Source: Blastocatellia bacterium (lineage in GTDB: Bacteria > Acidobacteriota > Blastocatellia > UBA7656 > JADIYM01). Taken from it: a stretch of 38,573 nucleotides of DNA. This document shows, piece by piece, positions 17,671-22,734 of this stretch (the first letter of the stretch is position 1; the number at the start of each line of letters is the position of its first letter). A program made the position numbers and the translations under genes. Below the pieces are notes generated by a model. It made no database searches. It was not told the DNA's origin and saw only the letters and a program-made list of their open reading frames with translations. Location of the stretch: assembly GCA_021463145.1 (NCBI GenBank), contig JAJTWZ010000039.1:1-38573 (forward strand), in the 5' to 3' direction.

Positions 17671-18174
17671 ATGAAACTTGTGATCCTCGGAAATTCCGGT
17701 TCCGGAAAGTCGTCTCTGGCGCGGGCGGTCGCGGAGCGTCACGCCGTGTCGCGTCTCGATCTCGACGAGATCGTTTGGGAACCGGGGCGCGTCGCGGTGC
17801 AGCGGGCAAGCGACGCCGTGCACGCCGACCTGGATGCTTTTCTTGGAGCGAACGGCTCGTGGGTGATCGAAGGATGCTACGCCGAACTCGTCGAGCGTGC
17901 GCTGTCAAAGGACCCGCGGCTGATCTTCCTGAATCCCGGCATCGACGCGTGCCTTCGAAACAATCGGCAACGTGAGTGGGAGCCGCACAAGTACTCGTCG
18001 ATCGAGGAGCAGGATCGCATGCTGCCGTTCCTTCAGTCGTGGGTAGCCGAATACGCAACTCGCGAGGACGAGTGTTCCTACTCGGCACATCGGCGGGTGT
18101 TTGACGGATACGGCGGCGAGAAGATCGAGGTCGTGCAGTGGAGGCCGCGACTCGAGGATCTCGGACTGGGATAG
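17671..18174 (+). CDS. Small P-loop kinase-like protein (adenylate kinase / topology-modulation-like)
   Basis: The protein has 167 residues from the ATG at 17671. Walker A is at the very N-terminus: MKLVILGNSGSGKSSLA (Lys13). It is followed by RLDLDEIVWEP, WVIEGCYAEL and RLIFLNPGIDACLRNN, the pattern of the AAA_17/FlaR 'topology modulation protein' group of small NMP-kinase-like proteins. It probably phosphorylates a small molecule or nucleotide, with substrate unknown. Earlier in-frame start codons exist upstream, but the conserved fold starts exactly at this ATG. It is divergent from the two-TM gene across about 150 bp. Confidence 0.78.
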   Translation: MKLVILGNSGSGKSSLARAVAERHAVSRLDLDEIVWEPGRVAVQRASDAVHADLDAFLGANGSWVIEGCYAELVERALSKDPRLIFLNPGIDACLRNNRQREWEPHKYSSIEEQDRMLPFLQSWVAEYATREDECSYSAHRRVFDGYGGEKIEVVQWRPRLEDLGLG

Positions 18175-18358: not shown

Positions 18359-18797
18359 TAGCGTGCGGACCCGTTAGTATCTGGCTACTTCGTTGTACAG
18401 CACGCTCCTTGATCCGCGTCACACACGAAGTTCGAGCGTGAGTCCACTTGAATCGGCTTGCAAGGAGAATCGACAGACTGGGGCTGTCGAACAACGTGGC
18501 GGGACCGGATGGATACAGTTGAATCGACACACCCGGATCTGAATCTCGTCCGTTCCTTTCTGTCGCTCACGCCAGCCAGTCACGCCGCCCCCGGTTTGTC
18601 CTTGCCCGTCAAGCCCCGTGGGCACACGTGCCAACTCACGCCCCCAGGACACGACCGGCATATTTCCTTAGCCCCCTAACCATATCGTGTAGTCGCCTGT
18701 TGATCTCGTGCACCCTACAGGGCAGATCGCCCCAGCCGATGGAGACAGGCCCGCGCAAGTGAAACCATATCAATACTTTCCCTCCGTCCGGCATTTC
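18359..18797. other. Long non-coding stretch upstream of the sigma-54-type promoter
   Basis: No credible gene is seen on either strand. It is less GC-rich than its surroundings towards the right end. The 9-mer AACCATATC occurs twice (18678-18686 and 18763-18771), about 120 and 35 bases upstream of the sigma-54-type promoter. These could be activator sites, but two copies of a 9-mer are weak evidence. Confidence 0.4.
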
Positions 18798-18813
18798 TGG
18801 CACGGTATTCGCT
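18798..18813 (+). promoter_or_regulatory. Sigma-54 (RpoN)-type promoter
   Basis: TGGCACG-N4-TCGCT differs from the consensus TGGCACG-N4-TTGCW at one base. The GG and GC dinucleotides that define -24 and -12 are at the required spacing. Transcription would start near 18825, giving a leader of about 70 bases before the ATG at 18893. The long upstream non-coding region leaves room for an enhancer-binding activator. Confidence 0.65.
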
Positions 18814-18892
18814 TAAGGGCGCGGCAACGGACCGGGTGAGTCACACACCACCGACCCGGCCCCAAATACTCTCCGCAAATCGGAGGCTTCCA

Positions 18893-19378
18893 ATGCTGAA
18901 TCTGAAGAACATCCGTCGCACCCTCATTGTCGGGCTTCTCGGCACGGTACTCACACTCGGTTTTACCGCCACACCGGCGTCCGCGCACGGTTGGGGAGAC
19001 TCGGCTCGACGATTCGTTTCGACGACTTACGAGTACGCTCGCGGCTACCGCGAAGGCTATCGCGTCGGCTTCCGCGACGGCCGTTACGAAAGCGGCCGGA
19101 GCGGGCGCAGTTCGGCTCGCCGCAGTATGCAGACGGCATTCGATCGTGGATTCTCGAACGGTTACTCGAACGGGTTCCGCGCAGGCTACAACCAGCGAAG
19201 GGATTGGCGCGATGACCGCTGGGATCGGAACGACGATCGGCGCGATGACCGGCGTGACCGCCGCGATGACCGGCGTGATGACCGGCGTGACCGCCGCGAT
19301 GACCGGCGTGACGACAGAGATGACCGGCGCGACGACCGGCGCGACCGGCACGATCACGACGATGACGACGACAACTGA
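18893..19378 (+). CDS. Small secreted protein with an Asp/Arg-rich tail
   Basis: The protein has 161 residues. GGAGG lies 6 bases before the ATG at 18893. A signal peptide (LIVGLLGTVLTLGFTATPASA, about residues 11-31) is followed by a Gly/Tyr/Arg segment with spaced GY and GF motifs (YARGYREGYRVGFRDGRYESG, then FSNGYSNGFRAGYNQRR). The last 55 residues are low-complexity DDRRDRR repeats ending in DHDDDDDN. The tail is highly charged and surely disordered, and could bind metal, polyphosphate or nucleic acid. No family name is assigned. The gene stands alone, between its own sigma-54-type promoter and a strong terminator. Reverse-strand frames here give only Val/Pro/Ile repeats and were rejected. 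Confidence 0.75.
   Translation: MLNLKNIRRTLIVGLLGTVLTLGFTATPASAHGWGDSARRFVSTTYEYARGYREGYRVGFRDGRYESGRSGRSSARRSMQTAFDRGFSNGYSNGFRAGYNQRRDWRDDRWDRNDDRRDDRRDRRDDRRDDRRDRRDDRRDDRDDRRDDRRDRHDHDDDDDN
19208..19372 (+). repeat. Low-complexity tandem repeat encoding DDRR units
   Basis: Short units of the form GATGACCGGCGTGACCGC repeat with variations. They encode the Asp/Arg tail of the secreted protein. Such a tract is prone to slippage, so its length may vary between strains. Confidence 0.8.
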
Positions 19379-19403: not shown

Positions 19404-19437
19404 AATGAGGCGCGAACCATCGGGTTCGCGCCTCATT
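19404..19437 (+). terminator. Strong hairpin terminator
   Basis: A perfect 15-bp stem (19404-19418 with 19423-19437) has a 4-base ATCG loop, 25 bases after the stop of the Asp/Arg-rich protein. There is only a weak T-rich run afterwards. It may also serve the convergent kinase gene ending at 19525. Confidence 0.8.
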
Positions 19438-19524: not shown

Positions 19525-22500
19525 TCAGAGCCGTTCCGTCTCGGTATCTTGTCCCCCGCCGCGCATTGCAAGCGCGACCGCATCGGCAAGTTGCATCGAA
19601 GCGACGCCAGAGGCACACGCGTCCGCCGCCGCGACACCGAGAATACCTCGCAATTGCTCGAGGAACGCCTCGGCGGCAAGCCGCTCGCGCACCGGCAATG
19701 GATCGTGCGCCGATTCGCGATACGCTTCGGCAAAGCAAGCCAGCCTGTATGCAGCAGAGCAGTCTCCGGCGTGTAAGGCAACACGCGCGAGTCCTTCAAT
19801 GGCAACTACGGCGTCACCCACCGCACCGAGTTCGTTCGCCCGGCGGAGCGCGTCGCTCAACGACGTCCGGGCCCTGGCCCACTCGCCCTGTGCCATCAGA
19901 GATTCGCCAACCACCGCCTGGCATTGCGATACGAGCAATTCGAAGCTGCCGGCGCGAGCGACGTCCAGCGACTCGGATGCCCGAATGTACCCCTGAACCG
20001 CATCTCCAGCCGCCAGCGAGATCTTCGCCCGCTCGAGCAGCGCAACACTGATTCCCTCGGAGAAGCCCGCATTTCTGAACAGGTCCAGACTCTCGTCCAG
20101 CCGTTGTTCCGCTTCGCGAAGCTCGCCGAGCTGGCGCGCCGTCTCTCCGAGACCCTGAAGCGCGCTTGCGATCGTAATCGCAGTTCCGGATGAACGGTGC
20201 AGTCCTACCGCCTCCGTCAGCAGGCTCAACTTCTCGTCGAGTCGACCTTGGGCTCCGACGATCCGGCCCAATTGCGACAGCGCCTCTGCGCGCAGACGCA
20301 ACCGATCCGTTCCCTCGAGCAGCGAGAGGCACTCTCGAAAAAGCGTCTCGGCGTCAGAATAGAACCCCTGCCGATGCGAAATCGACGCAAGGCGGAACCT
20401 CGCCCGCGCCCGTAGCACTCCGTCGGCATCCGGACTTGCGGCCTGACAGTTTTCGATCCAATTCCGGCAAAGCTCCCAATGGCCAAAGTCCTCCCAATAG
20501 GCCCCAAGCGCAAGCGCGAGTTGCAGGTTCTTGCCAGTCGGGTCTTGCCGCTCGCGCCCGGCGGCGAGCGCCGCCAGCGCGTTCGCGTGCTCTGCACCCA
20601 CATTTCGGCGCCATCGGTCGTGGTGTGGGCTGCCGAAATCCACGAACGCCGCTTCGACCGCGTGCAGCACCCACGCGCGATGCCGTTCGGCGACAGCTTC
20701 ACGGTCGTCGTTCGGCAACCGGGCGCCAGCGAATGCACGGATCGTCTCGAGCATTCGATAGCGCGTCGCTTCCGGACGCTCGTCCATTACGACCAGCGAC
20801 TTCTCGACCAGGTGGATGAGGAGCGGCAAGACCTCCACGGTATCGAGATCGTCGGAAGCACCGACGGCTTCCGCTGCCTCGAGCGTCCAACCGCCGGCGA
20901 AGATCGACATTCGCTCGAGCAGCAAACGCTCATCGGCCGAAAGCAGGTTGTAGCTCCAATCGATCGCGGCATCGAGCGTGCGGTGCCGGGCGGGAACCGA
21001 ACGGCTGCCCCCAGACAGCAGGTGCTGGGCGCCAATGCGGTCGAGAATCTGGCCGACCGACAGCGCGTGAACGCGAGCTGCCGCGAGCTCGATCGCGAGA
21101 GGAATGCCGTCGAGCCTCGCACAAAGACGGGCCACGAGAGGCGCATCTGCGTCCGTCAACTTCCAGGATGGTCGCGCGGCCTGCGCCCGCTCGACGAAGA
21201 GCCCGATGGCGTCCCACTCCAGGGCCTGTTGCGCGGTTCGTGCCAGCGCCTCGCTGGCCACGGCGAGCGGTTCCAGCGGGTACACGTGCTCGCCGTCAAT
21301 GGCAAGCGGCTCGCGGCTAGAGGCGAGGAGCTTGAGATTCGGACAGCCACGCAACAGCGCCGTCGCCAGCGTTGCACACGCATCGATGACCTGGTCACAG
21401 TTGTCGAGAACCAGCAGAAGACGCCGGTTCCTGAGGTGGCCGAGCAGCACGTCGAGAATCGATCGGCCAGACTGACCGCCGAGTCCGAATACGTCCGCCA
21501 CCGCACCGGCTACGTGACCGGGATCGGCAAGTGAGCCCAGGTCCGCAAGCCATACGCCGTCGGCATGCGATTCGAGGAGCGACGAAGCCACCGAAAGGAC
21601 GAGCCTCGTCTTGCCTATGCCTCCCGGTCCAGTGACCGTGACGAGTCGCGATCCAGGAAGCACGAGCCGCACGCCGGAGACGTCCCGGTCACGCCCGATC
21701 AGCCGCGACATCTCGGCCGGAAGATTGTTCGGGACGCGGTTGCTGGCCCCTGCAATGCCCTCCGACGCAACTCCGTGTGCGAGCGGAAGCGTGGCTGCCG
21801 AGTCGCCGGCAGACGCAGCCGTCACCGCACTGCGAAACGCGGCGGCAGAATCGAAGCGTTCGCGCGGATCCTTGGCGAGCGCCCTGAGGATGGTCTCGGA
21901 GAGTGCGGACGGAATCGACGGCGAATAGGCCGATGGCGGAGGTGGCGCAACCGAGACGTGCTGATAGAGCAATGCGGGAGCAGAGGAAGCTTCGAAGGGG
22001 AGCCGGCCCGTAGCCATCTGGAACAGGAGGCAACCGAGGGCGTAAACATCGCTCTGCGGGCCAGCGGGCTCGCCACGACACTGCTCGGGCGACATGTAGT
22101 AGGGCGTTCCGAGTATACCGCCCGGTCCCGTGAGCGGCGTCCGGCCGTGATCGCTTTCGTCGAAGAACCTGGCGATCCCAAAGTCGAGCACCTTGGCTAC
22201 GCGTTCCGCCTCAACCTGCTCGAGCACTATGTTGTCAGGCTTCAGATCGCGATGGATGAGGCCGGCGACGTGGGCTGCCTGCACCGCTGAACATATCTGC
22301 CCGAACCAGGCGATGGCCTCGCTCAGGGGCAAGGCGCCCCGGCGACGAAGTTCGTCGCGAAGTGTGTTGCCTTCCAGGTACTCGAGGACTAGATAGGCCC
22401 CCACGTCGACTGCAACGCCGTAGTCGTGGACGGCTACGATGTGCGGGTGCCGCAGGCGAGCGACGGCGAGCGCTTCACGCTCGAAACGCTTGACGGCTAC

Positions 22501-22734
22501 CTGGACTCCCGAACTCGCGCCGAGTACTACCTTGATGGCGACCGGCCGCTGCAACGCGAGTTGAGTTCCACGGTAAACGGCGCCCATTCCGCCGGCGCCC
22601 AGGCGCGCTTCAATCCGGTACTTCCCGTCGACGGTCGCGCCGAGCAACGGATCCGAAGCCAGGAGGGTGCCGTCACGCGGGCAGACACCGACCGCTTCGT
22701 CGAATTCCGAAGAGCAAAGTGGACAGAAACGCAT
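19525..22734 (-). CDS. Ser/Thr protein kinase fused to STAND-type ATPase and TPR repeats (second copy)
   Basis: The protein has 1069 residues. It opens with a cysteine-containing ribbon (CPLCSSEFDEAVGVCPRDG). The kinase domain spans about 40-305, with GAGGMGAVY, Lys68 in VAIK, HRDLKPDN (Asp163), DFG (Asp184) and GTPYYMSPEQ. The ATPase has GPGGIGKT at 369-376, LLLVLDNCDQVID and ASSREPLA. A winged-helix-like segment and TPR-like helices fill the C-terminal half. GGGA lies just upstream of the ATG at 22734. Architecture and many motifs match the protein at 9100, so the two are paralogues. The zinc-ribbon-like N-terminus is unique to this copy. It has no membrane segment or DNA-binding domain, and is a probable cytoplasmic signalling hub with unknown targets. 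Confidence 0.92.
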   Translation of the reverse strand: MRFCPLCSSEFDEAVGVCPRDGTLLASDPLLGATVDGKYRIEARLGAGGMGAVYRGTQLALQRPVAIKVVLGASSGVQVAVKRFEREALAVARLRHPHIVAVHDYGVAVDVGAYLVLEYLEGNTLRDELRRRGALPLSEAIAWFGQICSAVQAAHVAGLIHRDLKPDNIVLEQVEAERVAKVLDFGIARFFDESDHGRTPLTGPGGILGTPYYMSPEQCRGEPAGPQSDVYALGCLLFQMATGRLPFEASSAPALLYQHVSVAPPPPSAYSPSIPSALSETILRALAKDPRERFDSAAAFRSAVTAASAGDSAATLPLAHGVASEGIAGASNRVPNNLPAEMSRLIGRDRDVSGVRLVLPGSRLVTVTGPGGIGKTRLVLSVASSLLESHADGVWLADLGSLADPGHVAGAVADVFGLGGQSGRSILDVLLGHLRNRRLLLVLDNCDQVIDACATLATALLRGCPNLKLLASSREPLAIDGEHVYPLEPLAVASEALARTAQQALEWDAIGLFVERAQAARPSWKLTDADAPLVARLCARLDGIPLAIELAAARVHALSVGQILDRIGAQHLLSGGSRSVPARHRTLDAAIDWSYNLLSADERLLLERMSIFAGGWTLEAAEAVGASDDLDTVEVLPLLIHLVEKSLVVMDERPEATRYRMLETIRAFAGARLPNDDREAVAERHRAWVLHAVEAAFVDFGSPHHDRWRRNVGAEHANALAALAAGRERQDPTGKNLQLALALGAYWEDFGHWELCRNWIENCQAASPDADGVLRARARFRLASISHRQGFYSDAETLFRECLSLLEGTDRLRLRAEALSQLGRIVGAQGRLDEKLSLLTEAVGLHRSSGTAITIASALQGLGETARQLGELREAEQRLDESLDLFRNAGFSEGISVALLERAKISLAAGDAVQGYIRASESLDVARAGSFELLVSQCQAVVGESLMAQGEWARARTSLSDALRRANELGAVGDAVVAIEGLARVALHAGDCSAAYRLACFAEAYRESAHDPLPVRERLAAEAFLEQLRGILGVAAADACASGVASMQLADAVALAMRGGGQDTETERL

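Follow-up and report, generated by a model that had tools for sequence, protein, structure and literature searches.

We analyzed a window of 38,573 nucleotides from a Blastocatellia bacterium (phylum Acidobacteriota), namely contig JAJTWZ010000039.1 of assembly GCA_021463145.1, and focused on a gene for a small exported protein, the predicted promoter before it and the hairpin behind it (Table 1). The promoter ends 79 bases 5' of the gene, and a GGAGG sequence lies six bases ahead of the start codon. The target is a lone gene, as the earlier note had described it: the upstream plus-strand gene ends at 18174, and the downstream kinase/TPR gene (19525-22734, minus strand) is convergent. This convergent gene encodes a protein kinase of 1069 aa that also contains NTPase and TPR regions. 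Around the target, we found no metal or stress gene. An antisense ORF (18770-19357, minus strand) was rejected as a repeat artefact, its translation containing Val/Pro/Ala repeats.

Table 1. Coordinates of the target gene and associated features in the analyzed window
Feature	Position	Strand	Detail
Inverted repeat	18618..18635	.	GTGGGCAC-AC-GTGCCAAC; 180 bases 5' of the -24 box
Predicted sigma-54 -24/-12 promoter	18798..18813	+	TGGCACGGTATTCGCT (TGGCACG-GTAT-TCGCT)
Gene for 161-aa exported protein	18893..19378	+	ATG at 18893, TGA at 19376-19378
Codons of GX3 (GYxxGYxxGF) helix-pair module	19028..19201	+	Residues ~46-103
33-bp tandem repeat	19206..19344	+	83% matches; codes for most of the Arg/Asp tail
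Perfect hairpin	19404..19437	.	15-bp stem, 4-base loop; between convergent genes

Sigma-54 promoters are silent until an activator protein fires them. The site at 18798-18813 departs from the consensus TGGCACGN4TTGCW at a single base (TTGC to TCGC), its GG at -24 and GC at -12 are exactly spaced with ten bases between them, and no second site in the window comes within one mismatch of the consensus. The previous call of a one-mismatch -24/-12 element at exact spacing is thereby borne out, and its assignment as a sigma-54 promoter is very likely right. Markov-shuffled windows contained a mean of 0.22 sites with at most one mismatch, and for a single strand of an upstream stretch of 185 positions the corresponding chance rate was approximately 0.0005 sites. 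Transcription would be expected to start near 18823, and the promoter scan returned no sigma-70-like site near this promoter on the plus strand. In the predicted 5' leader (18830-18870), an inverted repeat (CCGGGT...ACCCGG) may fold into a hairpin. Further upstream, the weak inverted repeat at 18618-18635 is a possible activator site, although such a repeat lies within chance expectation; the compared upstream regions had no activator motif in common, and no convincing activator site was found for the target.

The genome (5.28 Mb) contains a single rpoN gene, whose product carries the RTVAKYR box, as well as genes for 22 strong sigma-54 activators. One-mismatch sites numbered 52 genome-wide versus 83 for a reversed-pattern control, so the case for the promoter is made by placement and spacing and not by counts. 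The pattern TGGCACG-N4-TYGCW occurred at 10 sites, compared with a mean of 3.75 sites for each of the remaining spacings between N1 and N9. Sites were regarded as promoter-placed when they lay between genes, as called by a simple codon model, and pointed at a start within 200 bases; this held automatically for 6/10 N4 sites versus 0/23 testable sites at other spacings (Fisher test, P = 2e-4). Inspection raised the figure to 9/10, the C119 site being doubtful, because three genes (PilA, the one on C146 and the target) had escaped the codon-model caller; as the inspection was not blind, the automatic count is to be preferred. TCGC stands at -12 in 8 of the 10 sites, and the single mismatch of the target is therefore normal for this genome. 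Genes behind the N4 sites encode a type IV pilin (PilA), a FliA/WhiG-type sigma factor, an M36 metalloprotease, a TrbC-like pilin, a PAP2 protein, a mechanosensitive-channel-like membrane protein and three exported proteins including the target. At C108:84307, the site (TGGCACGGTATTCGCA) lies ahead of a gene whose exported product contains a REGDAVRATV stretch. The FliA/WhiG-like sigma gene (L055, G000:C24:12376) has a perfect sigma-54 consensus about 46 bases 5' of its start, which suggests a sigma cascade.

The target protein has a signal peptide with probable cleavage between ASA and HG, and contains no Cys. Its GYREGYRVGFRDG...GFSNGYSNGFRAGYN region constitutes a glycine-spaced (Gly-x3, hereafter GX3) module of two predicted helices with Gly at each fourth residue and an Arg-containing linker between them, and six Gly residues were invariant in an alignment of eight relatives. 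AlphaFold likewise predicted two helices, but confidence in the models was low (mean pLDDT of 59.5 and 63.4). The Arg/Asp tail comprises 60 aa (29 Asp and 25 Arg; 90% charged), ends in HDHDDDDDN and is a near-neutral polyampholyte that arose by tandem-repeat expansion. It was not found in the aligned relatives, in which conservation centres on the GX3 module. These features agree with the first description of a signal-peptide protein with Gly/Tyr motifs and a charged tail.

Searches with the whole protein found no relative in genome contigs, viral contigs or plasmids, and relatives were instead detected with a profile of the GX3 module, which placed the family in 60 of 396 Acidobacteriota genomes. 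In the same genome, a site at C146:7720 is a 16-mer identical to that of the target, and the gene behind it (L048, G000:C146:6720-9720) encodes an exported charged protein with the same module. Another exported GX3-module gene (L126, C146:20579-20770) has TGGCCCGGTGTTTGCA at -72, again with one mismatch, while no sigma-54 site was found upstream of the module gene on C3. Stretches resembling REGDAVRATV, as judged by eye and not by profile, are fused to the GX3 module in this C3 protein and in class relatives (L004, L007, L115, L117 and L119).

We then scanned the regions upstream of homologues with a relaxed -24/-12 pattern in which GG and GC were fixed. Sites were detected in 4/14 regions of a first set (0.35 expected) and in 14/32 regions of a larger set including the target (0.94 expected from shuffles and ~1.3 from the real background rate); as some regions are shared by both sets and the homologues are mutually related, Poisson values overstate independence. 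Most sites lay 55-95 bases 5' of the start, and 35 of 36 tested genomes carrying a homologue contained rpoN. No -24/-12 site was present upstream of L003, L005 and L007. In four homologues from one genus (L116, L130, L131 and L132), TGGCACG-N4-TT is kept and GT or AT replaces the -12 GC. The check by conservation that had been proposed for the promoter thus came out in its favor among homologues; other genomes yielded no strict orthologue of the target, and the promoter itself is therefore not traceable through an orthologue set. A related exported family (AYQDANYGY...YNYYFREGFRRGYEDG; L158-L203) has records from Acidobacteria, Gemmatimonadetes, Lysobacter and Luteimonas, and its copy in this genome matched no curated family. 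Genome G152, which belongs to the same class, has a homologue that agrees in its N-terminus and best upstream hit with that of a named Blastocatellia MAG (L137 and L165), and the lineage is assigned to Blastocatellia on this basis. Enrichment was weaker in this sister family as sampled across phyla (7/37 regions, 1.5 expected).

The hairpin behind the target gene has fully complementary arms (19404-19418 and 19423-19437; 100% over 15 bp), a folding energy of -36.6 kcal/mol (z = -4.4), and is the only separated-arm inverted repeat reported for the window. It had been proposed as a perfect terminator stem, of which the perfect stem stands and the terminator only in part: the sequence directly 3' is TCGTTCG with no U-run, which would follow the GC-rich stem of an intrinsic terminator, and the hairpin is absent from the terminator-scan output. 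Given this lack of a U-run and its location between convergent gene ends (19378 on the plus strand and 19525 on the minus strand), a role in termination is no more than possible, and the hairpin may plausibly serve as a U-less terminator.

Taken together, these findings make it highly probable that 18798-18813 is a functional sigma-54 promoter that gates a small exported GX3/Arg-Asp protein belonging to a wider exported set. A chance -24/-12 match, with transcription of the target driven by a sigma-70 or ECF promoter that escaped recognition, would fit the genome-wide excess of the reversed pattern over one-mismatch sites and the presence of such a site somewhere in about one in five shuffled windows; this explanation is unlikely, because it leaves unexplained the specificity of placement and spacing, the identical 16-mer at another module gene and the enrichment before homologues. 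Somewhat less unlikely, though still improbable, is a real promoter serving a metal-binding or stress-protective polyampholyte with the tail as its active part. The charge and the HDHDDDDDN end of the tail would fit such a protein, whereas its origin as a repeat expansion missing from homologues, the conservation of the GX3 module instead and the absence of metal or stress genes nearby argue against it. Yae1, Lto1 and FliH are cytoplasmic proteins, and it is very improbable that the target is a true member of either group functioning as a cytoplasmic adaptor. Weak matches to Yae1_N (PF09811; 24.5 bits, gathering cut-off 27.5) and to FliH models (NCBIfam; 18.9 bits, cut-off 192) hint at this kinship, but all matches of the target fall under curated cut-offs and cover the repeat only, and the target has a signal peptide.

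Under the preferred reading of a sigma-54 promoter gating an exported protein, the RpoN holoenzyme would rest in the closed state at 18798-18813 until an enhancer-binding protein opens it, and the transcript would yield one small protein for export via the signal peptide. The paired GX3 helices could pack on each other or on a partner, and the disordered Arg/Asp tail may make charge-based contacts on or outside the cell surface. The target would then be one of a larger group of exported proteins with GX3 modules that is common in Acidobacteriota and in which many of the genes have sigma-54 sites. A stress, surface or metal-related role had been suggested for the protein. Among the three, surface is the likeliest since proteins with the module are exported and the remaining genes with predicted sigma-54 sites encode pilin, protease and membrane proteins, whereas no support was found for stress or metal, the latter being weakly founded because the tail stems from tandem-repeat expansion and is not common to aligned relatives. 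Making contacts at the surface or outside the cell is thus the most economical role to infer. More tentatively, the shared promoters and the domain fusions (the GX3 module with the C108-like domain in relatives) may link these genes in an undescribed Acidobacteriota sigma-54 regulon of exported GX3-helix proteins that build or coat a surface structure alongside type IV pili. These findings connect sigma-54 control with a common, uncharacterised family of exported Acidobacteriota proteins with glycine repeats, offer a concrete regulon for testing in a poorly studied phylum, and back the view that control of the cell exterior by sigma-54 extends past the well-studied groups.

A literature search on Acidobacteria, sigma-54 and secreted proteins returned nothing relevant. 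The best reading of the target is an activator-gated envelope or extracellular protein within a sigma-54 'bacterial exterior' regulon as described by Francke et al. 2011 (PMC3162934), with which it shares the exactly spaced -24/-12 elements, the isolated gene and the exported product, as well as sites at pilin, protease and membrane genes. It differs in the prevalent TCGC at the -12 box in place of TTGC, and its product family was not found among those of that study, as far as searched. The Yae1/Lto1 proteins have a deca-GX3 motif that mediates pairing (PMC4523923) and resemble the target in the Gly at each fourth residue of its predicted helices; unlike them, the target is exported, Tyr/Phe-rich, has two short runs and scores under the Pfam cut-off, although its relative L113 passes Yae1_N at 50.4 bits. 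FliH/YscL proteins similarly contain GxxxG repeats (PMC2674601) as in the helices of the target, which differs in being exported, in having no FliH C-terminal domain and in scoring far under the NCBIfam cut-offs. Being exported and below both cut-offs, the target works at most like these proteins. The target also resembles the exported GX3-module proteins of Acidobacteriota (L113, L114, L116 and L048), a set with no library entry, with which it shares the signal peptide and paired module that define it and the frequent sigma-54 site. Those proteins carry one or more modules, whereas the target combines a single module with a unique Arg/Asp repeat tail, and it is a new member of this widespread, uncharacterised set, which is often under sigma-54 control.
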